A stretch of DNA of 64,000 nt, taken from positions 9,142,448-9,206,447 of the forward strand of contig JAJEKV010000012.1 in NCBI GenBank assembly GCA_021234155.1. The letters run 5' to 3'. A program made the translations under genes and the position numbers. Below, piece after piece: positions 541-63,337 of this stretch; the stretch's first letter is position 1, and every line of letters starts with the position of its first letter. Under the pieces are notes generated by a model, which was not told the DNA's origin, did no database searches, and saw nothing but the letters and a program-made list of their open reading frames with translations. The DNA is from Isoetes taiwanensis. Lineage: Eukaryota > Streptophyta > Lycopodiopsida > Isoetales > Isoetaceae.

Positions 541-1126
541 CCCTTATCTAAGGAAAGTGAGCTTTCATTATAAATATTTTATAAGCTTTCCCCTTTTTTG
601 TTTCGTATTTGGGATGTAATGGTCTCAGTAAGGTTTTGGCTGTGTATAGTATGGGAAGTCGTATGTTTTAGGGGTTTTGAGGAGCTTTTCGTCATTTAGA
701 TGTTCTGTGGGGAGCGTGGATTTGCATGTCTGCAAATAGAATGGGGAGCGTTCACGTGACGGAGCTGCGTTGCGTGACAGCGAACTGTTTGTGGGCGATG
801 AGGATGGGAGGAGGTGGAGTGGCTTTGTGCTTGCCGAAGATGTCTGCGGGAGGGGCGCTTGCAGGTAGGAATGTCCATTCCGTGTGCTTGAATGCTTGAA
901 TTTCTTGTTGTTCTGGTTGGAATTTGGTGCAAGCCGAGTGTGCGTTTAGGAACTTGGTGACCAGGTCTCATACCTTAGTCTGCAGTAGTGGGGATTGTGC
1001 GCTGCATGGAAGCCCTGTCCATGTGTGTAGGTTTCGTTAGTTTGCAGAGCTGGAATTCGGCTTGTGCTTCGAAATTTTCCCTTGGCAGCGCTGGACTGGG
1101 AAGGGTGCTGTGAAAGTTGTGCACAT
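541..1126 (+). other. Region upstream of the HUH/Rep-like gene
   Basis: No gene is seen. An AT-rich patch near 575-592 has TATA-like character and lies between copies of gctttc (571-576 and about 591-596), with ggaaag further upstream (554-559). The reading frame of the next gene is open back to about 1064 without an ATG, so a short upstream exon cannot be excluded. Confidence 0.25.
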
Positions 1127-3217
1127 ATGGATATTCGTAGGGCAGCAAGATTGAGAGTGAAGGTGCATAAGTTGAGTCTGCCAAGAGTCATTGTGCAGGG
1201 ATCTCAGTGTTTGCGATGCAGAGGGTTGGATGGGAGGAAGTTGCAGCACTGCCTTGACGCAGAGGGGAGGCTGCCTGAGAGCAGTGCATCTGGTGAGATG
1301 CGGAATATGAGAAACAGGTCTACAGGTCAGGAGGTGACTTGGGGTACTCCAGGGGCTCCATGCTTTAGCGTTCTTGTTGGTGGACAGGGAAGATATGACA
1401 GTGGGGATAGCGTTGGCCTAGCTCCAGGAGGATGGTGTGATGGAGGTGGATTGGCCAGCAACGGGCAGGGGGATAGTTCTCTGAGGAAGGGTCTGAGTGG
1501 GGAAGGAGGCAGCTTGGTCAGGAAGGGCCTGCCACTGGTGTACGAAGATCGGAGACCATTTATGTTTCCAGAGACTGCAGCAGGGAGATGCGGTGCAGAA
1601 CATGATGGAGTTGGAAGGGGAAGATGTGTTGGTGCAGGCAACCGTGGGCGAGGAAGAGGTGGACGTGGAAGAGGGAGACAAGTTAGGATTTGTGAGCCTA
1701 TTCATGATCATACACAGGAAGCTGAGGGGGAGGGAATCACATATGTCACAAGAGGTCGAGGTGGGAAACGGGGCCGAGGGAGAGGAAGGAGAGCAGCCAG
1801 CATGTTTGAAGAGCATGTTGGTATGGACATTGGAGGAGGAGGCGGCGAGGAGGTTGTTGATATGTCTTCTGTTTTAGATGTGTCAGTGACCATTGTCTTT
1901 GGGGGTGCATATGTGCCGACTGCACTGTATGAGCATGTAGTGCAGTTCATGAAGGACAATTGCAAGGCTGGTGTTGTGGCGCTTGAAAGGGGCTCCTCCT
2001 TGGATCATTTGCACGTCCAGGCTGTCTTTCGCTTGCATGCTAAAACGCCTACGAGCGTGAACGTGAGAATAAAAAATTTGCTTGGCTGGAGCCATAGCAG
2101 GCCGGCAGGGGCAATGATTCTATGTAAAGCTCTGACAGGAAGTCGCCTCCACTGTTTTGAAGGCTTGGTCGGCTATTGTTTAAAAGACTTAGGCAAGTTA
2201 CATTTCCAGGTTCATTTACATAATGTGAGTGCTGAGCAAGTGAAGACTGGCAAGGAGTTGTATGCGCTATATGGCGCCGGAGATCTGAAGAACTTAGTGC
2301 TCCTTGACAATAGGAATATCATGGGCAGAGCGTATCATTACCTGTTATACCATAGTGGCAGATTTAGGACTGCATCCTTTATCCATACGGTCAGGCGTAT
2401 GTTACAGACTGGCAAGTTTAGGCTTGCTAGTTCGTGGGTTTTGCCAAATAACTCAGCCTACGTATCACTGGAGCGTGTGCAAGCAGCATGGAGGATCATG
2501 CTTGCACCCGAAAGATGTGCCTACAAAGATGTGAGAATGAGTTTGTTTGGGACACAGCCAGGCATTGTCCCAGTAGAGAAGATTGGCAAGAGAAGGAAGC
2601 GCATGTGGGACAAGGCAGGGGTGTTCGATGATGGAGAGGAAGAGGAGGATGGGAGCAATGATGAGGATGAATTCATTTACGCAGATAGTGGAGTCCAGGC
2701 GCCTTGTGCAGAGATCCCTGCTGATGACTGTGACTTCATTCCGTTAGACATGCATGATTGGACGTTTGATGTTGGTTGAGGTAGTGCTCTCTTCGTTACA
2801 TGTTGCTAATTGCTATGTTATTTACGAATGCATGCAGGTGATGGACGTGATGTAGAGGTCGTTGTGTTGAGCGACAGCTCTGAGGAGGAGGTGTCAGATG
2901 GACGCTCCGCAATGGCAGAGGGGCCAGATACTATTGCCATGCATTTGCAGGAGGCAGAGCAGTCAATCAAAGAGGTTTGTGAAGCTGTAGGAAAACTCCG
3001 TTTAGCACTTGCAGAGGTGTTGGACCGTATTCAAGCGAGCGTGGATCTTGTGGAGAGGCAAGGGGTCAGCTCCATTATACTGGAAGGTGGCTTGTTGCGC
3101 CCGCATCTGAATCTTTGCCGAGGTCTCCTACTGAAGGAGCTTCGTGAGCTGGACGCGCTCAGGCGAAGACATGATCCCTCCATTGGATGCTCAAGGAAGA
3201 GAAATGCTCCACAGTAG
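1127..3217 (+). CDS. HUH/Rep-like endonuclease gene (replitron-type candidate)
   Basis: Predicted protein of about 675 residues from two exons, 1127-2774 and 2838-3217. The 63-base intron has GT..AG ends and a CTAAT branch-like site, and splicing removes the stop at 2777. The start is the first in-frame ATG; the open frame begins at a GTG (1064). The N-terminal half is Gly/Arg-rich with RGRG repeats (about 1612-1800), as in nucleic-acid-binding tails. The middle has the two marks of a rolling-circle HUH endonuclease: HLHVQ at 2006-2020 (metal-binding His pair) and YCLKD at 2174-2188 (Tyr nucleophile with Lys), 56 residues apart. An acidic stretch follows near 2630-2680. Exon 2 begins with a hydrophobic-acidic motif VVVLSDSSEEE resembling a SUMO-interacting motif. 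No helicase domain is seen. Replitrons, eukaryotic transposons encoding an HUH protein, are the best-fitting known class; a domesticated Rep is the alternative. Both family names are inference from motifs. Confidence 0.6.
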
Positions 3218-13135: not shown

Positions 13136-13608
13136 ACCAATACATCCAAACATTCCTGCATTTAGTTGGAAAAGATAAAGATATATTTTCAAAACAACTG
13201 AGCTTGAGATTTGGGTAGAGAATACCATTGGGAAGTGAGCAAGACGGTTCGGGAAAGTTATACATGCAACATTCAGCACTCAAACATATTCCTAGAGGAG
13301 AACCTGTAGATAGTGATACCTTGTGGGGCATTTAGAAGAGCAACCTGAAGTTTTCCAGCTTGCAATGCAGCAAAATATCTACCCTACTAATATTATAAAT
13401 AGTCAATCTTCTAAGCAAGAAGCATATTATTGCATCATTGCTACAAAGTAAGATGTTACAGAAGATATATAGTCAAATGCAAAAGAAGTTGTTGCACTTA
13501 CCAAAACGAGAACCATACCACCACTAATACATAGTCAAATGCATCTACCTTACTAATGTTATAAATAGTCTGATCTTTTAAGCAAGAGGCGTACCATTGC
13601 ATCATCGC
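13136..13608. repeat. Local repeat R, copy 2 (left of the chromovirus)
   Basis: Repeats 11395-11813 and then continues with the same text as 27678-27840. It is interrupted at 13608/13609 by the full-length chromovirus; the other half of the repeat resumes at 26634. The target duplication is atcgc here and attgc on the far side. Confidence 0.8.
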
Positions 13609-15185
13609 TGTGACGTTCCAAGTATTTATACGGTATACGTATAAATACACTGACACGTCACATAGTGAAGATACGCCACCATGGGGTATTTGAACCTAGG
13701 GGGTTGACCTAAAAGAGATTAATTTAGCTATGCTCAATTAATAAAGGGGTAATTAAAGGATAATTACCTAAAGTTGAGGAAGTAGTATTTAATTAACTTA
13801 AATAGAATAAATGAATAATTAGGAAGGCGCCACTTGGCCAAATTCGATTGGCCAGCAGGGAAATGCTAACTTGGGCCATCAAATTGGACCCCTACCCCAT
13901 TTGGCCCCAAAATCGAGCCAGGAGGAGGAGCTGTTGAGCGCCCCAGTTGTTGCTGAACACCCAAGTTGCTGAAAGATGGAAGTGCCCCATGATAACGGAT
14001 CTAGCAGAAACTCGGGTTAGTGAGTAGTCTAGCTTGAGCTTCTAGGATAGCGCCTCAGTTAGTCTTCTCTGGTTATCTTTGTTAAGATTAACCCTTCTTT
14101 GATACTTAGGATTATATTTCAAATATGAATTATGCTTTGTTATGGATGGACGGATGAGTCTATGATAGTATCTCTGTTAGCCTTCCGTAAAGCAGGGATT
14201 AAAGGGGGTTAGAGACCTCTGTGCCTCATGTTCTTAGTATGCTCCTAGTAGTTTCCTTAGCTCCCAACTATTGCGGCCTGTGCACAAGAGACCACCGAGT
14301 CGTAGATGCTATGGAATTGCTTAGCACCAGAGAAGGGACGCAGTGGTGAAGTGGGGGTGGGGTCTTGCACGAACATAAAAGGCTCCTGGGACTCCTACAG
14401 TGGGCTAGGCCTGATAGCCAGTCACGCAGAGGGCCGGGTATGGGTCTGACACTCCCTGGGTGCAGAGGTGTGACCCGTATGGGGCATCCTGTACTTTGAA
14501 GATAAAGTTAGGGGAGTAGGTCGGGTACGGATGCGGGGGTCGCTGATGCGGCACGTATTCTCTAGCTCACCCATGGAACCGCTGTGATTCTGGAAGGGGA
14601 CACTTCCCTGACCTGCCTCATCGGACCAGGTCTTCATGAAACCTAGAGTAGGCTCGAAGGGTGATACCTTGAGTCTGCGTTTTCGGAAGGCTATAGTGAT
14701 GCCATAGCATGATTCGACTCATCTGCAAAGTATGCACAGGAGGGGTGGATGGAGTGGACAACCCTAGCCGATGTTCTATGCCAGCCAATGCCATGCCAAG
14801 CTTCGGCCTGCTGACCTCTTGAGACCTAGCCGTCAGTCGATCCTCACTGGAGTCTGAGCCGGGGTAGAACCATGGGTTTGGGGTGTTTTCTCTAGTATTA
14901 AATGTATCTTCTCTGTTATTATCAGTTGGATGGATGTGCCACCCTTCGTGGTGGTATTTATGATATGATTATGTTGTATGCTAACCTTGTATTCACGCTT
15001 CCGCGACATAGGAGCCCCATCGAAGGCGTGGACCGAATGACCCCTCTGTGTCCTTCACTCGAGCATCTTTCCATAGATGGCCCGAGTTAGACGGAGGGCC
15101 TGCTCATGGCGAGATGGTTGCCATGGGAGGGGGAAGTCCCCGTATGTATACGCCCGAGCATCGTATATGTTCTGGGAGCGTCACA
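13609..15185 (+). repeat. 5' LTR of the chromovirus
   Basis: 1577 bp, bounded by the inverted heptamer TGTGACG/CGTCACA. It is followed after one base by the PBS. The 3' partner is 25066-26633; one visible length difference is a short indel near 13702. Confidence 0.95.
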
Positions 15186-15186
15186 G

Positions 15187-15198
15187 TGGTATCAGAGC
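15187..15198 (+). other. Primer binding site of the chromovirus
   Basis: TGGTATCAGAGC, complementary to initiator tRNA-Met, starts two bases after the 5' LTR ends. It fixes the orientation of the element as plus. Confidence 0.95.
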
Positions 15199-15826
15199 CG
15201 TGATTTTGGTAGCCCGAAATCATAGCACTGACCAAACCCCTAACTCGTTAGTTCGGTAGTTAGGTGGGAGTTTAAGCTAGTTGGACTGTTTAACTCTTCG
15301 ATGTTTGGTTTTGTGCTAGGTTGAAGTAATAAATTATAAGTTTTAATAAGTTTAGGGCGACTGGAGGACCCAAGTTTGGAAAGTGCCATAACTTTCTTCA
15401 GGAAGCTCGGAATCGGAAAATTTTTGTTCCATTGCGTCGGAGACCCTCGAATTAGTTTAGGACACTCTTTGGTTGGCAAGAAATGGTGAGCAGATGGCCC
15501 GAAACCCAAAATCGGTGCACTTGGGTAAAAACGAGTTTCTTTCGCGATTTTAAAGGCCAAAATACCCAAGTCCGCCGGTGTGACCGGACGTTGACCATTT
15601 TTATTAAAAAAAAAAAAAAAAATTTCTTAAGAGGCGGGATTTTGGAAGCGGACGTTTTTAGGGTTTTTCCCGCATTTGTTTTTTTTTAGGGTTTTCGCCT
15701 CCTAACCTGTCCGCCGAGCGCCATAGCCGTTGTACCTGTCCGTACCTATTCCACCAACCCCCTTAGTGCTGCCATAGCCGCCTTGCTTACAGTCTCCGGG
15801 CGCCTGCACCGCTACATTGTGGAGAG
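15199..15826 (+). other. Long leader between PBS and first ORF
   Basis: About 630 bases without a convincing ORF. It contains a 17-A run (15606-15622) and T-rich stretches near 15665-15690. It probably serves as the transcribed leader of the element. Confidence 0.5.
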
Positions 15827-17074
15827 ATGGCGAGAACCAAGGGAACTAAGAGTTATGCTACCTGTAGCATCCCTCAGCTCTTTGTTGCGCTTGGAGACAG
15901 TATTAGTGACACAGAAAAGGGTCCTGATAAAGTCGAGCTCCTCTTGGAACAGCTCGTCCTAAGGTTCATTGAGGGCGACTGCATACCATACCCCATTTTT
16001 CACTTTACAGAGAGGTTCCTGGTTAAGCTCAACGCCGAAGAGCAGACTCACACCCTGGTAGAGCAGGAGGACCAAACCTTAACCTTAGTGAAGTACTACT
16101 CTGCGGATATGGCCCAAGATGCTGCAGAGGCCGAGGCTCAGAGGGTAGCCGCCGGGATAATGGCCATGGCTCACGAAGAAGACCTTAGGGAGACAGCTCG
16201 CGCAGACCCGGCTGTTAGGGGTCGGAAATATCAGTATTTGGGTCGGGGAAGAGCCATATGTCGGCGGCTTGATTTCACAATACCCCCGTACTACTATGAT
16301 GAGGATGCCCAGATTTTCATCTGGGAAGATGTTTCCCCATCGTTTCCGCAGGAGGTTCTGCAGGAAATTGAGTTTGATATGGCGGCCCGGCCTGATCGAG
16401 ACGTTGCAGAGATTCGTAGAAGGACATAAGTGCGTCTCCTACGTGAGCAGCATGCAGAGCGGGAGGCAGCTCGGCTAGCCGAGGAGCAGGCTCGGAAAGC
16501 TGCCGAGGAAGTCGCCAGATCTACTGAAGAGGCAGCGAAACTAGTAGCAGAGGCTGATACTCGGGTTGAGGAGCCCGTTAACCGTTTCTACCGGCGGAAA
16601 AGGAAGACCACCAGCCCGACTCGCTTGGGGTCACAATACAAGACCCAACTCCAGGTGATGGGTGGGGTTGCAAAGAAGAAAGGGGACAGTCGAAGAGACA
16701 CCTTAGTTGAGCGAGCCCGACACCCGGCCACAGGGGGAAAGTCACTTCCTCTTATTCCCCCTCCTCGACCGAGGAAGCCCCACCGATTTAAACCCGGGAC
16801 AGTAGCCTTGCGGGAAATCCGCAAGTATCAGAAGTCCGCGGAGCTTCTCATCAGGAAGTTGCCGTTTCAGCGCCTTGTTCGGGAGATCGCACAGGAATTC
16901 AAGACCGACCTTAGGTTCCAGACTCATGCTATCTTAGCCCTTCAGGAAGCAGTTGAGGATTATCTGGTCGCGCTTCTTGGCGACGCAAACCTTTGCGCCA
17001 TACATGCCAAGCGTGTGACCATTATGCCCAAGGATTTGGCCTTGGCCCGAAGGATACGTGGGGAGAGGCCCTAG
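15827..17074 (+). CDS. Retrotransposon ORF ending in a histone H3 core (in-frame stop)
   Basis: One frame of 415 codons, broken only by TAA at 16427-16429 (codon 201). It opens MARTKGTKS, close to the H3 tail start (MARTKQTARKS in canonical H3). About 300 residues of unrecognised sequence follow, including an Ala/Glu/Arg-rich coiled-coil-like stretch (codons 203-246). Codons 314-415 (16766-17071) match canonical H3 from about residue 35 to the C-terminus almost without gaps: [61 protein letters not shown] and RRIRGER are all visible. Lys56, Lys79, Cys110, His113, Lys115, Lys122 and Asp123 equivalents are kept; Lys36 is Arg; the helix-2 end reads LLGDAN in place of LFEDTN. It sits between PBS and gag. 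Its role, perhaps packaging or chromatin targeting, is inference. A nested H3 retrocopy is the alternative, but the continuous frame and the ARTK start argue for a real fusion. Confidence 0.9.
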
Positions 17075-17204
17075 ATTTCCCCATTTTTGTAATATATGTT
17101 GTATCTTTTGTATATCCAGTTTTGTAATTAATGTAATATGTTTTCTTAACAGGGTGTTTTACTACTTCATCTGCATGCAACCAACACATATAAAACTCCA
17201 GTTC

Positions 17205-17226
17205 AAAAAAAAAAAAAAAAAAAAAA
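17205..17226 (+). other. 22-A run downstream of the H3 ORF
   Basis: An uninterrupted run of 22 A lies 131 bases after the H3 stop codon. It could be the fossil poly(A) tail of a captured H3 mRNA; a plain slippage tract is the alternative. Confidence 0.5.
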
Positions 17227-17387
17227 CTTTTCAATAACAGTAATAATAATAAAGTCATTCACTTTAGGGAATATTCCCTTTTAAAGGTCTCACTTTTTCT
17301 TTGAAACGTATCCCTTTCCTTTTAGGGTTTCCAATATTGTGATAAGCTCCTCTCTTTTCTTCTCCTCCTCCTTTTCCCAGAGTCACT

Positions 17388-18676
17388 ATGGATCATACCC
17401 AGCGCCAGCAATGGTACCACGATGGTGAGCAATGGGATCTTGATGTTCCCTTTGAGCATCTTCATCCCTACTTGTTACAAGAGGTGGATCTCATCGCCAA
17501 TATGGAGGCTCATCCCGATTATGCCGACTTCTTGGAGTTCTATATCCACGAGATCGTGCCCCAGTGCTCCTCAGCTTTACCTCCACAGATCCGTCCTCAT
17601 GCAGATGCTTGGGGATGACCGCCATGCCGAAGATACACTTAGGGGTATTCAGCGCCGTGCTAGGCATGCTCCTATTCTTCAGTTTGGACGGCAGCAGACC
17701 TATTTTGAGGCCCGCTTTGCATTGGCCATTCTTATGGACCAATATGTGGAGTTTGATTCCACTCCATTGGAAAAAGGGAAGTTACCTATTTCTGATGATC
17801 CAGAGGAGGATGAGCGCATCAGCCATACAGATTTTGCTCAATGGAAGCAGCTCGCCACCGAACCGCCTATCGTCCGAGCCCAGGGTCGCAAGCTTGCGGG
17901 GCTAGATGCACTTCCCCCAATCATTCACAATGGTCGAGAGTATCTGCTCCTCGATGACATTATGTGGGCATATCACGTCATCGCTAACCTCCCACACATG
18001 ACCAAGGACCTAGTCATGTATGAGCTCGCCGAATATTGTCAGGATGACTTCATTGACTTCTCCCTTCCTGATTATCCTGCGGAGGTCCAACAGCTACTTA
18101 GGTTTCACCCTGAGGATTTAGCACCTGTTGAGACCTTGCTACAGCTAAGGCATTTGATGCTCCAAGATCCCCCTTCTCCGCCACCTGAGGATGCTTTTGC
18201 TGCCATGGGACCCCACGTTCCTAATATTAACGAGGTGGCCATACCAATGGAGGAAGATGAAGAGGGGGAAGAGTTATGTGATAACAAAGACCATCTGAAA
18301 GAGGATAAGGAAGAGGCCTATGCGGAGCAGGTACATGTAAATCTCGAAAGGGAAATAGCGACTTCCAGAGATCCAGACGTAATAGCTTTTAAGAACCACC
18401 TTACACGGTTTTTCCTTTCAGCTTTTCGCCAAGGCCAGGTGTTATTCTTTGTTCGCGCTCTCGCTCCTGAGGTTGAGGCATTTTTTTGGGCACTGAAGGC
18501 TTTGTCAGTTACGGCAGGACACCGGAAGCTTCCTGCAAATCTCCATTCTGCCGTACTTGTGAGTCGTGACTTGACACCAGGACATTGCGGCTTGGATGAG
18601 CATGAAAATGCTCGTGGCAGCACCCTTAGCTACTGCTTTTCCTCCCGCAGTTGCTTCAGCTGCCGCACTCACCATT
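17388..18676 (+). pseudogene. Second extra ORF of the chromovirus, function unknown
   Basis: Starts ATG at 17388 (MDHTQRQQWYHDGEQWDLDV). The frame shifts at about 17615 into the frame that runs to 18678. The joined product would be about 430 residues: mostly acidic and hydrophilic, with a Pro-rich spot (PPSPPPED) and an acidic run (MEEDEEGEE) near 18170-18270, then an Ala/Leu-rich end. I recognise no domain; I looked for H4, H2A and H2B folds and saw none. Context (after the H3 ORF, before gag) suggests an accessory protein of the element. The 18400-18680 end may be out of frame. Confidence 0.55.
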
Positions 18677-18990
18677 AGCCCCGGTGTCGCGCTACTTCGC
18701 CAGCGGGAGCCACCATCTCCTACGACAATGGATCAGGATGTGAAGCCTAGCTCCTAGTCCTTCATAGTATATATTGTATGAGTATAACCTTTGGGCTACT
18801 CAAGCATATGTAATCCTTGATTGGCATTTTTTTTAAGCCATCATATAATATATGTGCTATTTTCGTATGCTTTATGATTATTGTATCGTTGAGTACGATT
18901 GAATTGTTTCCCTATGGTACTTGTTTGTCTCTTTTAGAGTTTGGAGTACAAGAAGTCGTTCAATATAGTATATTCATTCTTTCCGTCTTA

Positions 18991-19495
18991 CAGACGATGA
19001 GCTCGAGGAAATCGAGGACAGAATAACCAACGAATTACGAAGGGACGATCAGGTACCTCCCGACCAAGACTACGGTCAACAGTATGGGGAGTATCAGGAT
19101 CGGGATGATGGTTACGAAGTAGGGGAACCCGTGGAAGAAGGAGAGCCCTATGATTCAACTAAAGGCTTGTAAATAGTCAATATCCTCCGTGAGCGCGCCT
19201 TTGAGCATCGTCAACAAATTCTTCGTTGTACCTGGGATTACTGGGAAATGACGAAGCACGAGGCTTATGCCGACGCCAATGACCATTTATGGCAGCTCTT
19301 TTATGCGCTAAGAGACCTTTTTACTTTACTCACCATTAGTCCTACATTAGACTACCAGTACGTTATCATCCAGGCATGGGCTCGCTACAAGGTAGTCAGG
19401 GCAGTACGGGAAAGCATCCGTTACTCTATCCTGTACCTTTTGCGCAGCCCTAGGCCTGATTTCTTCAGTTTTTTTTGTTGTTATGGCTAAGTGTG
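18991..19495 (+). pseudogene. Third extra ORF / gag leader exon
   Basis: Opens after a splice-acceptor-like cttacag with an acidic stretch (DDELEEIEDRITNELRRDDQ), meets a stop near 19171, then continues in frame through 19248 with NDHLWQLFYALRDLF and VIIQAWARYKVVRAVRESIR. The second part recurs at 48982-49200 in the truncated sister copy (NDHLWQIYYALCNLF, AWARYKLVRAVRESIRYS), so it is a real conserved coding block of the family. It may be an N-terminal gag exon or a small separate protein. Confidence 0.6.
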
Positions 19496-19711
19496 AGTTG
19501 GTTAAAAATTGCCCAATGTATAATCACTACTTTTGTGTTGTACAACCTTAAGTTTTTGTAAACCACACCTCCAATGTAACTACCACTTTGACTTATAATA
19601 AAGATCTTTTCTTCAATTTTCTTGTACTGTCTTTATTATTGTTTCCTAGCACTACTCAAAATGATCTTCTTGTGAGACTTGATATCGCCGTAATTCTGCT
19701 TATACCTTTTT

Positions 19712-20556
19712 ATGGTCAATATAGACGGTGCACGTAATACCTCATGGCAGACACTCTCAAATGCTAGCAGATTAACGCCTGAACAGGAACTCCTGTTGAT
19801 GAAGCGACAGTTAGTAGAGCTGCAGGCTTATGTGTTGAATGCCAACCCACCACAGAATATGCAGAAGGACGGACCGGAGTTACCTCCGTTACCGCCAAGT
19901 CCACCACCACAGCAGCCACCTGCACCGGAACCAGGCCCTGTACCCGCACAAAGGAGGCACCGTTCCAAACGCCGTCGAAGCTCGTCTACGGATAGTGCCA
20001 CATCTTCACAATCAGCCACTTCTGTGTCTTCAGAGTCGTTTATATCGCCGGGACAAGGAATACCGTAAGACGGTTGACACGGCCATTACCAGCATATGGA
20101 AAAATAGGAGCTAACAGGAAATTAGCTCAGTTTGATGGGAAGTCTAGAGGCGGCCTGAACGCAGAGTCTTGGTTGGACGAAATGAAGGAGTTCGGGAAAT
20201 CCTATGGGACGACGGAGAAAGATACAGGAAAAGTTGCCACTACAAACCTTACTGGGGCCGCTCGTATTTGGTGGAAGGGCTATGCTAGAGCCAAGCATCT
20301 AGACAGAAGCAGATGCAAGTTCAAAAAGTTTGCCAAAGCTTTTAAGTCGCATTATGTGCCCCGTGCGCACAAATGCCAACAGATTCAGACTTTTTACAGG
20401 TTGGAGCAGAAGGGTATGTCAGTTCAGGCCTACACAGATGAATTCATGCGCTTGAGGCTGTATGTCCCAGGTATGAATGAGAGAGGGCGGTGGAGGGCTA
20501 TATTGAAGGGTTGCCCCCCTCAATTAAACGAATGGTTAAGGCCATAGACCCGAAGT
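19712..20556 (+). pseudogene. Gag of the chromovirus (capsid part)
   Basis: Preceded by an acceptor-like tatag at about 19725; the sister copy has ttag before the same gacggtgcacg. The first part has LTPEQELLLMKRQLVELQAY and a Pro-rich linker. After a frame change near 20050-20080 comes the retrotransposon gag domain: WLDEMKEFGKSYG, ATTNLTGAARIWWKG, FKSHYVPRAHKCQQIQTFYR, YTDEFMRLRLYVPGMNERG. Another frame change falls at about 20490. Forms the particle shell in intact relatives. Confidence 0.8.
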
Positions 20557-21383
20557 CAGTTGCGGAGGCTGAGGCTAAGGCATTGAGCCTTGAAGAGGAC
20601 ACACCAAGAAACCAGTACCAACGCCCCGCCTCTTATTCCCAGCCGCGCCCGTACACACCTTACAAGCCCCGTTCACCAAGTCCTGGGCCTTCTCAGCAGA
20701 ACTCTAACGGTCGCCAGGAAAAGAAAGTCACCTTCAACATGCCAGACAAACCGAACAATGTCGGTAACGCAGTTCGGAACCTCTTACAATCTATTCCCAA
20801 AGAGGCCCGAGAGCATCTCCACAAAGAGAAGGCATGTTACAGGTGTATGCGACCCGGGCACTTCATGCAAAATTGCCCTTATGTCACACAGACTGCCCAG
20901 CTGGCCATGGCCGACCTTGATTGGGACGATCTCGAGTCTGCACCACCTGTCGACGAGGAGGCTCCCGAGTATATTCACGGTGCGTCCCATATCCTTGCAG
21001 CCATTGAAACCGGCAATGCTGAAAGTCAGCCTGCCGTTATTTCCACTATAGGTCAAGTAGACAGTAAGCCTTTCATAATTCTTATGGATACGGGAAGTAC
21101 ACATAATTTTGCTTCTCCTAGAATGGCCCAGGTATTGCAGCTTGAGACTTTGAGGTCCCGACCGAAACCTGTGACTTTAGCCAGTGGTAGAATCAGACAT
21201 ACTCATGGCCGTCGCATTAACCTTAAAATGCAGCTGCCAGGTGCACCAGTCGCATTGGGTGCCGAGTTAATGGATATTGGCAAATATGATCTGATTGTTG
21301 GCATGGAATTCTTGGCATCTGCAAAAGCCAAAACTGCGAAAAACGGGAGGTTACCTTCAACGCAGCTAATGGAGCCCGCGTAA
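20490..21383 (+). pseudogene. Gag nucleocapsid and aspartic protease
   Basis: Continues gag (AIDPKSVAEAEAKALSLEED), then a CCHC zinc knuckle CYRCMRPGHFMQNCP at about 20837-20881 that binds element RNA. A retropepsin follows with the active site ILMDTGSTHNF at about 21079-21111 and the second conserved block LIVGMEFL near 21294. The frame ends at 21383, short of RT, which is open again from 21413, so a further frameshift is needed. Confidence 0.85.
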
Positions 21384-21412
21384 CTATAAAAGGTGATCCC
21401 TTAAACCCCATT

Positions 21413-22326
21413 ATGCAGTCTATGTCCATCAGGCAGTTAAATAAGGCTATACGCAAGGATAAGCTACTTTGCGTCATCAGACTTGCATCCATTGAGACGG
21501 ATGCTAAACAGAAGCAAGTAGTTGATGCGTTGCCAGAGAGCATTGCTAATCTTCTCAGGGAATTTAGCGATCTCTTTCCAGACGAGATCCAGAAACTTCC
21601 TCCATTTAGAGGGGTAGAATGTGAGATAGCTTTGGAACTAGGTACTAAGCCTACCAGTAAGGCCCCGTACCGTATGAGTCCCCCTGGATTGGCAGAGCTT
21701 AAGAAGCAACTTCAGGAGTTATTAAACCTAGGTTTCATTCGGCCTAGTGTTTCACCTTTTGGCGCTCCTATCCTTTTTGTTAAGAAGAAGGACGGCTCCT
21801 TGAGGATGTGTATCGATTATCGGCAGCTCAACAAGCATACGATCAAGAATCGCTATGCTTTGCCTAGAGCAGACGATCTTATGGATCAGTTGCAAGGGGC
21901 CAAGTACTTCTCAAAGATTGACTTACGCTCCGGATATCACCAAATAAGAATTAAAGAGGAGGACATCCATAAGTCTGCTTTTCGCACTAGATATGGGCAT
22001 TATGAGTTTACCGTTATGCCAATGCCCCCGCAACTTTTATGCGGTTAATGAATGATGTCTTCCGACAATACTTGGATGATTTTAACGTTATTTTCTTTGA
22101 CGACATTCTCATCTACAGTAAGACCCTGGAGGAGCATGAGAAACATCTTCGGTTGGCCCTACAAAAGCTAAGACGTCACCAGCTCTTTGCCAAGTTCTCT
22201 AAATGCAAGTTTGCCACTCCCAAGGTAGATTATTTAGGCCACGTCATTTCAACCGAGGGAATTGCTACAGACCCAGCAAAAATAGAAGCAGTCAAGGTAA
22301 TGTTTCAGAGGTTCGAAGTTTTTTAG
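21413..22326 (+). pseudogene. Reverse transcriptase, damaged
   Basis: RT blocks appear in order: [77 protein letters not shown]. At about 22020-22045 part of the FGLTNAPATF block is missing and the frame changes. The next frame carries [14 protein letters not shown] and the catalytic [10 protein letters not shown]. The deletion removes conserved palm residues, so this copy cannot make a normal RT. Confidence 0.9.
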
Positions 22327-23266
22327 GATTGGCAGGGTATTACCGGAAATTTGTCAAGGATTTTGCAAAGATTGCAGCACCTCTTACTGATCTTACAAAG
22401 CATGAGAAAGTGAAGGATTGGATTGAGCATTGGAAAGCAAAGGTCCAGGGAAGTTTTCAGAAGCTTAAGGATGCTTTAACGTCAGCACCAGTCCTCACAT
22501 TGCCGGACCCCGAAAAGGATAAACTAGTAGCAACGGATGCCAGTAAGATTGCTACCGGTGGAGTCCTAATGCAGGAGGGGAGGGTTATTGCCTATGATTC
22601 AAAGAAAATGAATGAGACTGAACAGCGATACCCTACCCATGATCAGGAATTGTTGGTCGTTGTCCGCGCTCTGCGTATATGGAGACACTACCTTCTTGGT
22701 AGAAGATTTCAGCTTGATACGGATCATCAGAGTCTCCGTTATCTATCAACCCAGCCGAATCTCAATCTCCTCAAAGGAGATGGATGGAATTTATAGAGGA
22801 GTATGATTTTGAGATTATGTATAAGCCTGGGAAACACAATGTGGTTGCGGATGCGTTGTCACGCCATCCCTTGGTAACCCGAACCCATTATAATGCGATT
22901 TCCACACTCACCAGTGAGTTCGGAAAACAGATAGAGCAGACCTTGGCCAGGGACCCCGAGTTCCGTGATGTCTGGGATAGTTTGGCTAAGAAGGCACGCA
23001 CAGATAAAGAACGTGAAGCTTTCCATTCGTATAAGAAAGAGGGCAATTTGTTATATCACAAAGATAAGTTGTGTGTACCTGAGACTTCAGGAGTGCGTAA
23101 GCTTATTCTCCATGATACACACAATAGCCCTATAGCTGGACATGCAGGTTTCATGAAGACCTACTTTAAGATCCGCTCCAGTTATTTTTGGCCTTCTATG
23201 AAGAAGGACATTGCCAGATATATTAAGCAGTGTCAGGTGTGTCACAAACCAAGGCTGAGCAACTAA
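22299..23266 (+). pseudogene. RNase H and integrase zinc-binding domain
   Basis: After another frame change: [19 protein letters not shown], then the RNase H/connection region with PDPEKDKLVATDASKIATGG, ELLVVVRALRIWRHYLLGR and TDHQSLRYL. The next ORF (from 22784) has YKPGKHNVVADALSR and the integrase HHCC-type finger: H..HDTHNSPIAGHAGFMKT.. then CQVCHKPR at about 23230. A frame change separates it from the integrase core. Confidence 0.85.
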
Positions 23267-24567
23267 GGATTCCAGGAGAGTTGCAACCTCTGGATGTGCC
23301 CAACGCTAAATGGGAAGTAATAACCATGGACTTCATTGTAGGCCTTCCACGTACTCTCTGTGGATATGATGCATTGATGGTAGTGGTCGACAAATTGTCG
23401 AAAATGGCTCATTTCTTGCCATGTCGTACCACGGATACAGCTTTCGATACCGCTTTGCTGTTTACAAAGGAGATTTTCAGATTGCATGGAATGCCACGAG
23501 TTATCGTATCCGACAGGGATCCCAAATTCGTAAGTGCATTTTGGAAAGATTTCTTTGCCACCATCCAAACTAAGCTTGCTATGAGTACGGCATATCATCC
23601 TCAGACGGATGGACAGACAGAGCGTACCAATCGCATTATAGAGGATATGCTACGAAGTTATGTGTGGAGTAAGCAATCACAATGGGCTGACTATATTTAT
23701 TTGGTCGAATTTGCCTATAATAGCATGAAACAGGAGTCTTCCAGAATGTCTCCCTTCATGATAAATTATGGGTACCAATGCCTTACTCCAGACACATGGC
23801 ATAATCCCATTTCTAAAGTGGAGGTTTCTCAACAACTCCTCTTGGAAATGCAAGCTTTGGTTGAAGAAGTTCGTGGTTACTTATTGGCAGTACGCAGTCG
23901 TCAGAAGAGTGTCGCGGATAAGCACAGAACCCCGCGAGTCTTCCAGGTGGGCGAATCAGTTTGGCTCAAAATTAAGGTAAAACAAGCCAAGCTTAAGATT
24001 GGTAACTGCAAGAAGCTGGCACCCAGATGGGCTGGGCCGTTCAAGATCATTGAACGTGTTGGAGAACAGGCATATCGCTTGGATTTGTCACCCCGCTTGA
24101 AGATCCACAAGGTCTTTCACGTGAGTCTTCTGAAGCAACATACCCCAGATCCAGAGGAGATCTTGGATACACCCACCCTCCTTGAAATGACAGAAGATCA
24201 TTTAGATATAGTGCCTGAAGCTCTTCTTGATCGAGCTTATAAGCAGACCAGAAGGACTCAAATGTTGCAATACTTGGTTAAGTGGAAACACTTGCCAGTT
24301 GAAGATGCTACGTGGGTGATGAAGATAGACCTTGAGAAGCACTATCCAGACTTTATGCGGGAATCTCACGGCCGCACCATCAACGATGCTATCAACCCCG
24401 ACCCCGGCAGTAAGCTTGAAGGCTTGATTCGCCGGGAATCATGTAGTAGAGGGGTAGATGCATCGTGGTTGACAATAGTTACCGATGATGAGATCACCTT
24501 CGTGTTCTCTAGGACGTGGTGTATTGTCGATGTTGGCATGACCGCGAATTGCTTGGAAAGCATGTAG
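23230..24567 (+). CDS. Integrase core and C-terminal chromodomain
   Basis: Open frame of 445 codons. DDE core: MDFIVGLP, VSDRDPKFVS and DGQTERTNRIIED carry the three acidic residues. GPFKIIERVGEQAYRLDLS is the GPY/F module. A chromodomain follows at about 24216-24360 (LQYLVKWKHLPVEDATWV), with the Y, W and W positions of the aromatic cage recognisable. In chromoviruses this module directs integration toward chromatin marked on H3. The last ~65 residues have no known motif. This is the best preserved ORF of the element. Confidence 0.92.
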   Translation: MSGVSQTKAEQLRIPGELQPLDVPNAKWEVITMDFIVGLPRTLCGYDALMVVVDKLSKMAHFLPCRTTDTAFDTALLFTKEIFRLHGMPRVIVSDRDPKFVSAFWKDFFATIQTKLAMSTAYHPQTDGQTERTNRIIEDMLRSYVWSKQSQWADYIYLVEFAYNSMKQESSRMSPFMINYGYQCLTPDTWHNPISKVEVSQQLLLEMQALVEEVRGYLLAVRSRQKSVADKHRTPRVFQVGESVWLKIKVKQAKLKIGNCKKLAPRWAGPFKIIERVGEQAYRLDLSPRLKIHKVFHVSLLKQHTPDPEEILDTPTLLEMTEDHLDIVPEALLDRAYKQTRRTQMLQYLVKWKHLPVEDATWVMKIDLEKHYPDFMRESHGRTINDAINPDPGSKLEGLIRRESCSRGVDASWLTIVTDDEITFVFSRTWCIVDVGMTANCLESM

Positions 24568-25050
24568 GTCATAGGCCGCGTTCATCTCGGCTATAATGGG
24601 AACTTGGCCATTCCTTACGCCGCAATGAATTGCGAACCATAGGCATGATAGGTTCCCTTGTAGATAGGTTTTCCTTTTATTTCTTATAAGGGGTGGTCCC
24701 TTAAACCACAACCTACTTATATTATCTATATATACTGATCTATTGACATGTGCAGGCCAGTGAGCAGTACGTGACCTGCCCATGTATAGAGGGTTGCTGA
24801 TGGCCCGACTTCTCCAGTTTTATCTTGTCTACATGTGTTACCTTTTTGTCACTCTGATGTTGATATTGGACTTCCGTCCTTGAATCTTTTTCTTATGATA
24901 ATCATGTGAAATGCACCTTGGTGCTTAAACTATTTTATGCTTTAAGTTTTAATGTTATTACCTTCGGAAATAAGGAATTACTTTCCTTCTTTTGTGTATA
25001 ATTTCTTATATTTTTTTTAACTAACCCTAATGCAGAGGACAGCATTATTT

Positions 25051-25065
25051 CTAAGGAGGGGAGAA
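25051..25065 (+). other. Polypurine tract
   Basis: ctaaggaggggagaa lies immediately before the 3' LTR, the expected site for plus-strand priming. Confidence 0.85.
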
Positions 25066-26633
25066 TGTGACGTTCCAAGTATTTATACGGTATACGTATA
25101 AAGACACTGACACGTCACATAGTGAAGATACGCCACCATGGGGTATTTGAACCTAGGGGAAGGGATTAATTTAGCTATGCTCAATTAATAAAGGGGTAAT
25201 TAAAGGATAATTACCTAAAGTTGAGGAAGTAGTATTTAATTAACTTAAATAGAATAAATGAATAATTAGGAAGGCGCTACTTGGCCAAATTCGATTGGCC
25301 AGCAGGGAAATGCTAACTTGGGCCATCAAATTGGACCCCTACCCCATTTGGCCCCAAAATCGAGCCAGGAGGAGGAGCTGTTGAGCGCCCCAGTTGTTGC
25401 TGAACACCTAAGTTGCTAAAAGATGGAAGTGCCCCATGATAACAGATCTAGCAGAAACTCGGGTTAGTGAGTAGTCTAGCTTGAGCTTCTAGGATAGCGC
25501 CTCGGTTAGTCTTCTCTGGTTATCTTTGTTAAGATTAACCCTTCTTTGATACTTAGGATTATATTTCAAATATGAATTAGGCTTTGTTATGGATGGATGG
25601 ATGAATCTATGATAGTATCTCTGTTAGCCTTCCGTAAAGCCGGGATTAAAGGGGGGTAGAGACCTCTGTGCCTCATGTTCTTAGTATGCTCCTAGTAGTT
25701 TCCTTAGCTCCCAACTATTGCGGCCTGTGCACAAGAGACCACCGAGTCGTGGATGCTATGGAATTGCTTAGCACCAGAGAAGGGACGCAGTGGTGAAGTG
25801 GGGGTGGGGTCTTGCACGAACATAAAAGGCTCCTGGGACTCCTACAGTGGGCTAGGCCTGATAGCCGGTCACGCAGAGGGCCGGGTATGGGTCTGACACT
25901 CCCTGGATGCAGAGGTGTGACCCGTAAGGGGCATCCTGTATTTTGAAGATAAAGTTAGGGGAGTAGGTCGGGTACGGATGCGGGGGTCGCTGATGCGGCA
26001 CGTATTCTCTAGCTCACCCATGGAACCGCTGTGATCCTGGAAGGGGACACTTCCCTGACCTGCCTCATCGGACCAGGTCTTCATGAAACCTAGAGTAGGC
26101 TCGAAGGGTGATACCTTGAGTCTGCATTTCCGGAAGGCTATAGTGATGCCATAGCATGATTCGACTCATCTGCAAAGTATGCACAGGAGGGGTGGATGGA
26201 GTGGACAACCGTAGCCGATGTTCTATGCCAGCCAATGCCATGCCAAGCTTCGGTCTGCTGACCTCTTGAGACCTAGCCGTCAGTCGATCCTCACTGGAGT
26301 CTGAGCCGGGGTAGAACCATGGGTTTGGGGTGTTTTCTCTAGTATTAAATGTATCTTCTCTGTTATTATCAGTTGGATGGATGTGCCACCCTTCGTGGTG
26401 GTATTTATGATATGATTATGTTGTATGCTAACCTTGTATTCACGCTTCCGCGACATAGGAGCCCCATCGAAGGCGTGGGCCGAATGACCCCTCTGTGTCC
26501 TTCACTCGAGCATCTTTCCATAGATGGCCCGAGTTAGACGGAGGGCCCTGCTCATGGCGAGATGGTTGCCATGGGAGGGGGAAGTCCCCGTATGTATACG
26601 CCCGAGCGTCGTATATGTTCTGGGAGCGTCACA
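25066..26633 (+). repeat. 3' LTR of the chromovirus
   Basis: 1568 bp, TGTGACG..CGTCACA. It differs from the 5' LTR at roughly two dozen positions by eye, plus a short indel near 25158. Followed by attgc, the target duplication. Confidence 0.95.
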
Positions 26634-27000
26634 ATTGCTATACAAAGTAAGATGCTAGTCAAAGGCAAATGATGATGTCGCACCCACTCAAAGAAGAACG
26701 GCACCACCACTAACACATAATCAAATGCAAAAACATGGGCCATTGCAGAATTAAATTCGCAACCTCTTGCACCCAAAGCAAGAATCATACCACTAGACCA
26801 AATGCCCACAACATTATTTTTTGTAATTTTTCAATTATAATACTAAATGAACGTACATTAACTTAAGAAGCACTCGTCAAGAAACATATGTACAAGGAAG
26901 ATATATTGCATATGATAAGCAAATTTACTCATTAAGAAATTGACAAGGAAGAATAATGGCGAGTCCTTAAGAACCATACCACCTTCATAATCAAAATCTA
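26634..27000. repeat. Local repeat R resumes right of the chromovirus
   Basis: Continues the repeat interrupted at 13608. It runs parallel to 27841-28208, including the tRNA-Pro-like relic and the tail gataagcaaatttactcat..cataatcaaaatctaa. Confidence 0.85.
26737..26807 (-). pseudogene. Decayed tRNA-Pro copy
   Basis: Minus strand; the 5' half (gggcatttggtctagtggta, then the TGG anticodon arm) is identical to the intact gene at 27978-28049. The T arm is ruined (gaattaaat where gaatcgaac is expected) and one base is inserted in the 3' acceptor strand. Not expected to fold as a working tRNA. Confidence 0.85.
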
Positions 27001-27677: not shown

Positions 27678-28208
27678 TTTACAAAGTAAGATGTTACAGA
27701 AGATATATAGTCAAATGCAAAAGAAGTTGTTGCACTCACCAAAACGAGAACCATACCACCACTAATCCATAGTCAAATGCATCTACCTTACTAATGTTAT
27801 AAATAGTCGGATCTTTTAAACAAGAGGCGTACCATTGCATCATTGCTATACAAAGTAAGATGCTAGTTAAATGCACATGATGATGTCGCACCCACTCAAA
27901 CAAGAACGACACCACCACTAATACATAGTCAAATGCAAAAACATGGGGCACTAATACATTGTCAAATGCAAAAACATGGGGCATTGCGAGAATCGAACTC
28001 GCGACCTCTTGCACCCAAAGCAAGAATCATACCACTAGACCAAATGCCCACAAGATTAATTTTCATAATCTCTTAATTTTAAAATAGCTTATTGAGGAAA
28101 CATATGTGCAAGGATGCATGTGATAAGCAAATTTACTCATCAAGAAATTGACAAGGAAGAATAGTGGCGAGTCCTTAAGAATCATACCACCTTCATAATC
28201 AAAATCTA
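27678..28208. repeat. Local repeat R, uninterrupted copy with tRNA-Pro
   Basis: Corresponds to 13433-13608 joined to 26634-27000. It therefore shows the site before the chromovirus inserted: gcatcattgctatacaaag is continuous here. It contains the intact tRNA-Pro gene. Confidence 0.85.
27978..28049 (-). tRNA. tRNA-Pro (UGG anticodon)
   Basis: 72 nt on the minus strand. Acceptor gggcatt pairs with aatgccc; D arm ggtctagtggta; anticodon stem cttgc/gcaag with loop tttgggt (anticodon TGG); T arm gcgag-ttcgatt-ctcgc. It has the layout of the plant nuclear, not the plastid, tRNA-Pro. No intron. Box A (tggtctagtgg) and box B (gttcgattc) are both intact, so Pol III transcription is plausible. Confidence 0.95.
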
Positions 28209-31300: not shown

Positions 31301-33646
31301 TTTCATTCTCATAAGCTCTTCCTGGCAAATTAAAAAGAAGAATAACATTTCAGCAACACGAGAACAATATTTAATGTATATAATAGTGGGTAATCACTGA
31401 CCTTCAATTGCCGTATCTGCTCCCTAAGCAGGTTGGCATCAGTTGTAGTCTCTTCATTAACAACTGCTTTGTTCCGTATTGCCTTTGCTCTCTGTGCAAA
31501 TCTTAATGTGCTTTGAGTCTCACTTTTGCAACTATTCAAAACATGAAAATTCCATCAGACTGACTAATAAAATGGTCTACTTATTACTCAATTTTCAGTT
31601 CTCACCTGTTGGCAGGAGAGACTGCACAAACCATCGCTAATTTAGCATTGCCACCAAGCGATTCTTGCAGTAAAAATGTGAGACGAGAATCACGGTATGG
31701 TATATGCCTCTGTTTTCCTGTTTGTGCAACCTCTGCCAGAATGTTGATCAGATTCCTGCACCTCACAAATGTACTATTAGAATCCTTTTGACGTTAACTT
31801 GATAGTACTATAACATTACCCAAGCTGGGAAAGTGAACGATTTATGCTTCCAGCCTCCTTAAGACGTTCTCCAGCAGCTGCAGTTTGTTTTTGTCTCTCA
31901 GACCCTGCCAAATCTACAAGGTTTATTCTGCTGCTTCTTACACTGCTCATTCCATCAGGCATGCTCTGAAGAATAGCATCCAAAAAAGGAATGTTAACAT
32001 GCAACTCATTGGTTATTTTTAAATAAAACTGCAAAAAGTGGCAAAGAACCTTATAACGGCATTCAATGATACAGGTAAATACACAGTGAGACCTTGAACT
32101 CTCTGCGTTCATAGAGGTTGAGCCAACCCTCCTATTTGACATTCCCTGTTTCAAGCGTACCAGTAAGTAAATACAAATTATAGAACTGGAATAATAAACT
32201 AGATCAACTTTTATCACCTTCAAAAGCAGCCGCGAGACATCCTCAATGTTAGACACATACTCCTCAGTAAGGTTATCAACATAAACGCCAGTCTTAGTGT
32301 CCTCCCTAATCTGCAGAAAAGATGATACAAATCATAAATGTCTGGAGACGGTACAAGACAATTAAACACCATTTTCCCACTTGCCTGAAGATTTTTCAGA
32401 CTAGGTTGAAGAAGATCCATGATCTGCTCGTTATATATCTGAGAGAAGTAGAGACAAGCTGATGCCTAAGGAAACCCCAGGTTGTTATAATCAAATTGGA
32501 TTAGGAAAAAGGTCTGTTACCTCAAGGAATGAGCATCTACATTGATATCTTAGTTGTTTGGCATGATGCTTCTTTTCTTCCTGTCAGCATGAGATTTGAG
32601 CTTAGTATGATTGCTTGTACCTGCAACCAGATGGCTGCTACCAATGACTTATCATTTACCTGTTTTATCCGGGCAAATAACTTCTCAAATACCCGAGGTG
32701 TCAATCCCCGCTCTTCCTTTGGAGCAGAACCATTACTAGGATCACCTATGGTTCCCCACATTGTGTAAGTTTTCCCACTCCCTGTCTGCGATTTTCACAT
32801 TTCAGTAACAATAAAGAAAGTGACTAACCTACCAAGAACTTTTACCACCACCTTACCTGTCCATATGCAAATATTGAGCTGTTGAACCCTTGCAAGCAAT
32901 TTTCCACCATAGGCATGCCCATTGTTTGAAAAATTTGCTCCTAAGAATTTGAGAGATGAGTTAAAAGATGCCTGTTGCAAATCATCAGAATATAGGGCCA
33001 GAAAGACTCTCTACCTGAGATGCATCTTCTCCAGCAACAGCATCAAATGTATAATGCTGATCTGACATAGAAAACGTATTTGGGGACGTCTTGATAATGA
33101 TGCGCTCAGCTTCTTCATCTTGTTCTTTCTTATTCAGTGGTCTAATTCTCACCATAACCTAGAGAAACCAACCTGTTAGCGTCATTTTCCTTCTTTGCAT
33201 GGATCTTGAATGCCTAAGCATTGATTTATTGAAGAATAAAGCTAAGGTGTATTAAATCGAACCTGAACTCCAGTATCGCTGGTATTATTCTCGGAAACCT
33301 GCGGAGAAACTGAAGAAATATGTTCCTGAAGAACATTAGGGTTGTTCTGCACATCCCAGGAAAGCTTGCGTCTAGCATTCCCGTTTGTTTCCTGATTACC
33401 ATGAACTCTGTTTGCACTAGGAGATGGCTTAGCAGAAGGAGGTCGAGGAGGAAGGCCAGGACTTTTCAAGGACCCGTCTGCCTTAATCAATGCAGGGGCT
33501 GTATTTGGGGGTAAATTTTCTGCATTCTGCTTCACCCTCCTTGTCGGAGTTGTAGGAACACTCTTTTGACGAGAAAGAGCTGGAGAAAATGGATCTCTGT
33601 GTGGCGAATCCACTCCCCTAAATGAATGACTACGAACCACCGGCAT
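28317..33646 (-). CDS. Kinesin-12, phragmoplast-associated (PAKRP1/KIN-12A type)
   Basis: Thirteen coding exons on the minus strand (33646-33263, 33158-33015, 32940-32857, 32785-32660, 32580-32521, 32438-32385, 32310-32218, 32145-32050, 31965-31820, 31755-31606, 31531-31402, 31321-29042, 28730-28317) give 1386 residues with all phases consistent. Ser/Pro-rich N-terminus (1-126), then the motor: [12 protein letters not shown]-loop GQTGSGKT (203-210), switch I NAESSRSH (328-335), switch II DLAGSE (365-370), neck [18 protein letters not shown]. The C-terminal coiled coil keeps the KIN-12A/B signature [15 protein letters not shown] and [20 protein letters not shown]. In Arabidopsis this family works at the phragmoplast midzone in cytokinesis. 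Odd points: exon 12 (2280 bases) holds two protein-level tandem repeat arrays (about 555-930 and 955-1082), absent in the family as I know it, and intron 6 uses a GC donor. Confidence 0.95.
29570..31150 (-). repeat. Coding tandem repeats within kinesin exon 12
   Basis: Array 1 (residues about 555-930): six copies of a 51-66 residue unit centred on NNKSVG followed by [27 protein letters not shown]; a seventh has lost the NNKSV core. Array 2 (about 955-1082): three copies of about 43 residues reading [29 protein letters not shown]. Strongly acidic with basic KRKR patches that could act as nuclear signals. The frame is kept throughout, so the expansion is tolerated. Confidence 0.85.
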
Positions 33647-39593: not shown

Positions 39594-40295
39594 TGTTAGC
39601 CTCTTCTACGCACCCAAGGAAAACTGAAGAACAAGCGCTAACTACAACAACCCAAGCAAATCTCAAGGTATATGAGATAGGCTAGGCCTCACTCTACTGG
39701 CATCATAAATCACCAACATAATCATTCTTACACAAGTCTTTTGAGATTATAGAAATAGAGATAACAAATAGGAGAATCACATAATCATAATCAAAATATC
39801 ATACTTCAACATAATAATATTCAACTGATCAAGAAACATACTCACAACTTCAAGAACTTTGCCCAGATGTCATCTTCCAAATTTGGGCCTCCCTTCTACA
39901 CGAATTTTGGCTATCTTATAGAAAACTCTACTTGATCCTAGCCACTAGATCTAGGCAAATCACAACCTTAGATCCAAATTCTAACTACCATAAGTTCACT
40001 AGATTTTGCCACCTCAACTTCAAATCTAGGTCATCCAAACTTCTTTGCAACTACCATGCTTCCCCAGATTCATGACACGTCATCAAATTATCAACCATTG
40101 AAAATATTTCTTAAGGACTTTAATACTCCTTCAAGTCCATAGGTTCCACTTTAGTACATCATAAATGCTTCCTCCACAATATTTGCACATTTTTTACATT
40201 TTCTCCACATTACACCCATATAATTCTTCATTTATGCATACATTTCATAAATTTAAGCTCATTATGCAAAAATAGTCAAGATAAAACACACAACA
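39594..40295 (-). repeat. LTR of the LARD-like element (left, 3' LTR)
   Basis: 702 bp. Differs from 42080-42781 at few positions (for example cacgtcatc/cacatcatc and actgaag/acccaag). Confidence 0.9.
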
Positions 40296-58797: not shown

Positions 58798-58978
58798 TGT
58801 GAAGAATCAAGAACTACAAGAAATGCAGACGAAACTCTAGATTGTCTGTAATAACAAAAGGAATACAACAGAATAAATATAGTGGCAGGAACCCAACCGC
58901 TTGAGATCAGTCGGGGAAACCAACCGCTTGACTCTCCTAGGACATGTGTCAGTCTCACACAGCTTGAATATTTTAACA
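58798..58978 (-). repeat. Copia 3' LTR
   Basis: 181 bp; as written on plus it starts TGTGAAGAATC and ends TTTTAACA. Preceded by target duplication ccagc (58793-58797). Confidence 0.96.
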
Positions 58979-58986
58979 TTCCCCCT

Positions 58987-62290: not shown

Positions 62291-62385
62291 AAAATGGCTT
62301 TCACCAAGAAATTGTCACCGCATCAATGTCCTCAAGTATGCACGCCTCTTCAAGCATACAATTCTCTTCTTGGATCGTCTTTGCT

Positions 62386-63211: not shown

Positions 63212-63337
63212 AAAGTTGGGGTTTCAAGTTCATGAGCATGGAGTTTGAGTTTGCCATGGACACAAAGAGCTCACAGTCTCAGGATCTTCCCCAAAATGAG
63301 AATTTCTTCTCTTAGATTGAGCAAAGCTCTGATACCA

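Follow-up and report, generated by a model that had tools for sequence, protein, structure and literature searches.

A Ty3/gypsy chromovirus family of Isoetes taiwanensis carries a histone H3 fusion upstream of gag

Plant Ty3/gypsy chromoviruses possess LTRs, a primer binding site (PBS), a gag-protease-reverse transcriptase (RT)-RNase H-integrase order and an integrase chromodomain. The element described here, found in a 64,000-nucleotide stretch of the Isoetes taiwanensis genome (contig JAJEKV010000012.1, positions 9,142,448 to 9,206,447; hereafter, the window), has all of these features in common with them and, unlike them, harbors three extra open reading frames (ORFs) between the PBS and gag, the first of which encodes a histone H3 fusion. 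Some Tcn1-like elements have an additional ORF of unknown function, according to a figure legend (PMC2864245). Phalaenopsis orchid Ty3/gypsy elements carry an AlkB m6A demethylase ORF that was proposed to counter host surveillance, and a screen of 121 angiosperms yielded 15 extra domains in elements; of those that the available portion of the article names, none is a histone (PMC9289625). Going by that portion, the orchid AlkB element is the closest published case of a captured domain: there, as in the present family, a gypsy lineage has an extra ORF in which a domain of host origin has become fixed, the domain being an RNA demethylase in the orchid elements and a core histone in Isoetes taiwanensis (PMC9289625).

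Of the viral histones that have been tested, the bracovirus histone H4 (CvBV-H4) comes nearest as a precedent for a single, N-terminally changed histone entering host nucleosomes; it is a host-like protein with a changed N-terminal part which, in the part of the source available, is reported to join host nucleosomes (PMC9145170). CvBV-H4 is a polydnavirus H4 acting in a moth, whereas the product of the first extra ORF (ORF1) is a plant-retrotransposon H3 with about 300 residues before the fold. As excerpted from the same article, the single H3 proteins of algal and giant viruses resemble ORF1 in being H3 alone, with 73-87% fold identity to a host H3 and extended tails in three of six; they differ in belonging to DNA viruses and in that most of them keep the tail modification sites that ORF1 lacks (PMC9145170). 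Nudivirus Orf1, described there too, shares with ORF1 a long N-terminal part of unknown nature and a C-terminal histone part, but is an H4-H3 doublet of 30-40% identity from a DNA virus (PMC9145170); ORF1 has one H3 only, which is 85-88% identical to the host protein.

Judged on the ORFs of the window element, ORF1 has one histone type and a host-like fold in common with the single viral histones. The family is a chromovirus with a captured host domain, and what is new is the kind of domain, a core histone, which was previously unreported. To our knowledge, no core histone has been described as a transposon gene. A literature search, part of whose terms were too narrow to return any paper, found no transposon with a core histone, and the word 'histone' was absent from the searched portions of the text of the I. 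taiwanensis (PMC8566536) and I. sinensis (PMC10541799) genome papers. A repeat annotated just as Gypsy can conceal a chromatin gene.

The window element and its ORF1 protein

The element spans positions 13609-26633 of the window (13.0 kb, plus strand, like all of its parts) and is complete in outline. Its 5′ LTR (13609-15185, 1577 bp, with termini TGTGACG...CGTCACA) and 3′ LTR (25066-26633, 1568 bp) are 97.8% identical over 1578 aligned columns, and are flanked by a probable target-site duplication with one mismatch (ATCGC at 13604-13608 on the left, ATTGC at 26634-26638 on the right). Sequence reading placed a PBS, TGGTATCAGAGC, at 15187-15198, which we take to be of the initiator-Met tRNA type, and a polypurine tract, AAGGAGGGGAGAA, at 25053-25065. 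Pfam matches identified a gag and aspartyl protease region (19712-21383; Retrotrans_gag, zinc knuckle and RVP_2), RT and RNase H (21413-22796), and an integrase (22784-24567; PF17921, PF00665 and PF24626) ending in a chromodomain (about 24211-24357) that scored above the cut-off (PF00385, E=4.3e-8). The domains are split among several frames and follow the gypsy order, so that LTRs, PBS, gag-PR-RT-RNaseH-INT order and integrase chromodomain are all present, and the claim of an earlier note on this DNA that the element is a complete LTR retrotransposon was borne out. Because its two LTRs are near-identical and because it carries stops and frameshifts, the window copy is a fairly young, dead insertion.

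Three ORFs lie between the PBS and gag. ORF2 (17389-18678) has no Pfam match and is frameshifted near position 17590 in the window copy; ORF3 (about 18969-19451, some 160 residues) contains one stop and is 62% identical to its family-B counterpart (161 aa) and 53% identical to that of family C (188 aa). ORF1 (15827-17074) comprises 415 codons and a final stop, and consists of an N-terminal domain without a Pfam match (15827-16426), a coil, a basic linker and an H3 part whose core, H3 residues 39-135 (97 codons, 16781-17071), aligns to host H3 genes with no indel. The earlier note had described this ORF as open apart from a single TAA and as reading as H3 to its end. Both statements hold: the only internal stop is the TAA at 16427-16429, and the part that follows it matched the Pfam Histone family (PF00125) with E=4e-42 and 143.8 bits (cut-off 26.4) and solved plant H3.3 and H3.1 chains with E-values down to 2.8e-51 over H3 residues 30-135, the fold being colinear with canonical H3 from about residue 35 to residue 135. 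A Pfam search of the ORFs of the window element revealed no second histone type.

Alignment of 23 uninterrupted copies of ORF1 (394-455 residues) showed a single fusion protein in all 23, always in the order of a conserved N-terminal domain of about 200 residues, a variable coil, a basic linker with a QYK that never varies, and an H3 part that starts at about residue 25-35 of H3 and runs to its end. ORF1 occurs in four families or more, here designated A (with a subgroup A2), B, C and D, the last known from two copies (L052 and L100). The window element belongs to family A, whose ORF1 starts with MARTKG, while family B mostly starts with M[AT][NP]TKS and family C with ME..K. The window start, MARTKGTK, is near the canonical H3 start, MARTKQTA, and residue 5, which corresponds to H3 K4 once the first methionine is removed, is a lysine in 22 of the 23 uninterrupted copies (families A, B and C). 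The N-terminus may be an A-R-T-K4 remnant left by insertion of a domain into the H3 tail, or the likeness may be due to chance. The canonical H3 tail is absent, the K27 context ARKSAP occurring in none of the 23 copies. A conserved K9 mimic in the linker was also considered and rejected, ARKS being found there in only 6 of the 23.

Searches with the remainder of the protein yielded no relatives. The best Pfam score for the non-H3 parts of ORF1 (8 members) was an E-value of 0.0018 in one member, which was judged a low-complexity chance match, and single-sequence AlphaFold models were poor and unfit for fold search (pLDDT 40 for the ORF1 N-terminal domain and 37 for ORF2). The non-H3 part of ORF1 had no public protein match among about 8000 scored candidates per query in a search of 5.8 billion proteins that requires shared five-residue words and whose coverage leaves out unannotated plant genomes; another protein search retrieved, in its best 120 of 8000, nothing but generic H3-bearing proteins. 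Viral contigs scanned with ORF2 and ORF1b queries contained no relatives of these.

Copy number, constraint and origin of the H3 fusion

The Isoetes taiwanensis assembly (1,658,258,908 bases in 1110 contigs) was searched with four parts of the element. With the H3-bearing half of ORF1 as query, 150 places were scored out of 9214 first-look candidates and all 150 were matches; 150 were scored of 3462 candidates for the ORF1 N-terminal domain, 113 of 6748 for ORF2 and 150 of 25,023 for RT, the candidate totals being in every case unconfirmed matches. An exact DNA pattern for V-T-I-M-(P/T)-K-D-(L/F), which host H3 escapes because it has I124, occurred 1,572 times genome-wide (804 + 768) and its reversed control not once. 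A canonical H3.3 query returned 15 host genes at 97-99% identity (intron-bearing genes would be missed or split in this count) and, after a gap, places at 72-87%.

The H3 sequence occupies a constant place. At least 41 of the 150 RT hits had an H3 match, among the 264 listed, on their own strand and 2.4-11.0 kb upstream of them, the median distance being 4.9 kb (4,983 in the window element); the count is a lower bound because the H3 list comprised these 264 only. None of the 150 had one in the three control positions, namely downstream on that strand and on either side on the opposite strand. Of the 70 loci L001-L070, 15 are host H3 genes, and tblastn detected the ORF1 N-terminal domain in 53; H3 sequence followed this domain in each of 20 family-B copies selected by it alone. 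Downstream of H3, ORF2 relatives were present at 15 of the 20 loci L001-L020 and at all 15 of L036-L050 (the stretches of L051-L070 were too short to judge); they were seen in families A, B and C. The PBS 12-mer recurred identically in 13 of the loci L001-L020 and in a family-B copy, L071, which also contains ORF1, ORF2, ORF3, gag and integrase, its stretch having no RT match; a family-C stretch, L072, holds ORF1, ORF2, ORF3 and gag pieces, without an exact PBS TGGTATCAGAGC and without an RT or integrase match. From MARTK to its end, ORF1 was uninterrupted in 7 of the 20 loci L001-L020 and interrupted in 13. The H3 fusion is a high-copy component of fixed position upstream of gag-pol, and the possibility raised in the earlier note that a neutrally evolving H3 retrocopy had nested once in this one copy is rejected: H3 is present in many copies, upstream of RT and behind the N-terminal domain, and does not evolve neutrally.

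Within families, the median dN/dS of the H3 core was 0.047 (A, n=7), 0.012 (B, n=6) and 0.023 (C, n=10), that is, 0.01-0.05, against 0.15, 0.095 and 0.12 for the N-terminal domain and 0.22, 0.23 and 0.13 for the coil of the same copies (Nei-Gojobori method; the pairs are non-independent). Pooled pN/pS over all readable H3 cores was 0.083 (A), 0.022 (B) and 0.054 (C), the 15 host genes giving 0.045. Since this first sample was partly ranked by similarity to the H3 query or picked for long open frames, which lowers dN, a second sample was drawn by the N-terminal domain only (entries 2-21 of its match list, all of family B). Here 15 of 20 copies were ungapped, 11 of these 15 lacked a stop, and H3 pN/pS was 0.110 with dead copies included, many of the changes being private, as decay after insertion would give. 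In 11 copies with both RT and H3 read, pN/pS within families was 0.042 for H3 and 0.085 for RT, H3 being at least as constrained as RT; between families, RT (0.071) was more constrained than H3 (0.116), although H3 synonymous sites are saturated there. The H3 core has been under strong purifying selection since its capture, a point that the earlier note had proposed to test, and, with its constant place in many copies, has the hallmarks of a fixed host-derived domain.

Constraint is also apparent residue by residue. Among 48 element cores, 40 of the 97 positions are invariant and identical to the host residue. At the positions which we take to contact H4, the other H3 or DNA, the host residue is kept in 44-48 of the 48 cores (46-48 for the H3-H4 interface; all 48 for the DNA contacts R63, R69 and R83), S86 excepted (0 of 48). 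Family medians of identity to the best host H3 were 85-88%, and the majority of element cores differ from the host at positions 86, 89, 102, 105, 107, 124, 125 and 135; because S86 and these majority positions differ, some host contacts may be altered. Residues 87-90 read HAIL in families A and C and FAIL in B, host genes having SAVL, TAVL or HAVL; HAVL is the plant H3.3 form in solved chains, and the alpha-2 site H/F-A-I-L of the element is nearest to it.

In a protein tree, 47 cores of A, A2, B and C fell on one side (support 86/77), and 48 cores, now including D, stood apart from host and Arabidopsis H3 (94/87); the element H3s appear, with moderate support, to group apart from the 15 host H3 genes, the tree program classing this grouping as neither shown nor rejected. 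The earlier note had called for an H3/CENH3 tree; the present tree covers H3 sequences. CENH3 has a divergent fold and a longer loop 1, and against this general description the identification of ORF1 H3 as CENH3 was rejected, on the strength of 97 core positions without indel and the above identity to host H3. Synonymous sites are saturated between the element cores and every host H3 gene. Because the element cores share substitutions absent from all 15 host genes, one old capture of a host H3 gene likely lies behind all element families.

Median dS for RT in the 11 paired copies was 0.37 within and 0.63 between ORF1 families; for H3 it was 0.42 within families, and 38 of 44 between-family pairs were saturated (L084, L087 and L088, from which no H3 stretch was obtained or recognized by pattern, were left out of this comparison). 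With H3 synonymous divergence saturated and that of RT not, the ORF1 types, by this measure, long predate the divergence of the pol sequences that carry them. This suggests module exchange between elements, by recombination or template switching; alternatively, H3 may have been captured separately into each ORF1 type, or ORF1 may have a faster silent rate. Separately, a comparison of L071 with the window proteins revealed an identity that climbs along the element, from 37% in the ORF1 N-terminal part through 56% in ORF2 and 81-89% in gag to 98% in an integrase piece, the pattern expected of a mosaic.

Possible roles of the H3 fusion

Silencing of plant transposons acts through marks on H3 tails. 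The reading we favor, at a probability of roughly 0.55, is that a chromovirus family captured a host H3, fused it to an N-terminal domain, and now uses the resulting tail-replaced H3 variant to enter nucleosomes to the benefit of the element. ORF1 would be made as an H3 variant pairing with host H4, which is the simplest reading of its conserved fold, and would be deposited in nucleosomes by host H3 chaperones through the alpha-2 site H/F-A-I-L, thereby setting the N-terminal domain of the element on chromatin where the tail would otherwise be. With K9 and K27 no longer in their normal setting, such nucleosomes would poorly accept the modifications by which plant transposons are silenced; it is for this loss that we prefer an anti-silencing role. 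The likely benefit would be that element DNA, new or integrated, stays expressible or can be found by its chromodomain integrase. Whether a transposon is able to change the nucleosome itself could be tested directly with an element that has an H3 fold and no such tail.

A more elaborate form of this proposal is tentative and, in our estimate, possible at best: element types A to D would each make a different tail-swapped H3 and assemble it with host H4 on element DNA, the nucleosomes would refuse K9 and K27 methylation, and the N-terminal domains would diversify as in an arms race and be swapped by recombination over a shared pol, the H3 fold remaining fixed. The many natural variants, with their fixed fold and varied N-terminal parts, amount to a natural experiment that can tell which positions of H3 are important.

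The alternative that survives best, although we consider it unlikely, is that ORF1 works as a tether, with an N-terminal domain that attaches to Gag, integrase or the cDNA complex and an H3 part that attaches to H4 or an H3 chaperone, bringing the complex into the nucleus or onto fresh chromatin without lasting entry into nucleosomes. The presence of both parts in one protein in 23 of 23 uninterrupted copies, and of H3 after the domain in 20 of 20 sampled ones, would suit such a bridge, and pol bears its own chromodomain, so that the element is in any case built to target chromatin; chaperone binding alone, however, would not obviously need the DNA contacts R63, R69 and R83 that every core retains. 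These same contacts and the basic linker could instead serve to compact element cDNA or RNA inside the particle as a histone-like nucleoprotein, and some large DNA viruses are indeed described, in the available part of the source, as packaging their genomes with viral histones (PMC9145170). We regard this as quite improbable, since the ORFs of the element revealed no other core histone, so that H4, H2A and H2B for a complete octamer would have to come from the host, and in view of the near-complete retention of the H3-H4 interface. That ORF1 competes for H3 chaperones or H4, upsets host chromatin assembly and so relieves silencing indirectly would fit a high copy number and an alpha-2 chaperone site kept near H3.3, but is very improbable, as it predicts neither conservation of nucleosomal DNA contacts nor a dedicated, equally retained N-terminal domain. 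Finally, a functionless H3 retrocopy, or one whose likeness to H3 is renewed by recurrent gene conversion from host genes, would account for the dead window copy with its stop and for the ORF1 interruptions in 13 of the 20 loci, yet it can practically be dismissed given pN/pS of 0.02-0.12 between copies and given synonymous sites saturated against all host genes alongside derived residues in common and a common position in the tree (support 86/77 with 47 cores, 94/87 with 48), which host conversion would erase.

Other features of the window

A second, older relative of the element lies at 48829-51400 (plus strand), with ORF3-like sequence (48868-49197) and pieces of gag and RT that are about 67-74% identical at the protein level; upstream of it, no ORF1 or ORF2 match was found within the window. 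A 571-residue ORF at 1064-2779 (plus strand) contains a Replitron HUH endonuclease domain (PF21859, E=3.4e-19), and a kinesin motor-domain exon at 31816-32256 (minus strand; PF00225, E=1.2e-22) probably belongs to a host gene. A Copia element occupies 58798-63518 (minus strand), with a 905-residue ORF bearing RVT_2 at 59570-62287; its LTRs are probably the two copies of a 181-bp repeat (58798-58978 and 63338-63518). Two 300-bp direct repeats, 99% identical and 2.5 kb apart (39594-39893 and 42080-42379), are probably those of a short LTR element. Just beyond the 3′ LTR of the chromovirus, a 67-bp sequence at 26634-26700 recurs at 27842-27908 with 94% identity, and both copies have a minus-strand tRNA-like match no more than about 150 bp further on (26737-26807 and 27978-28049).
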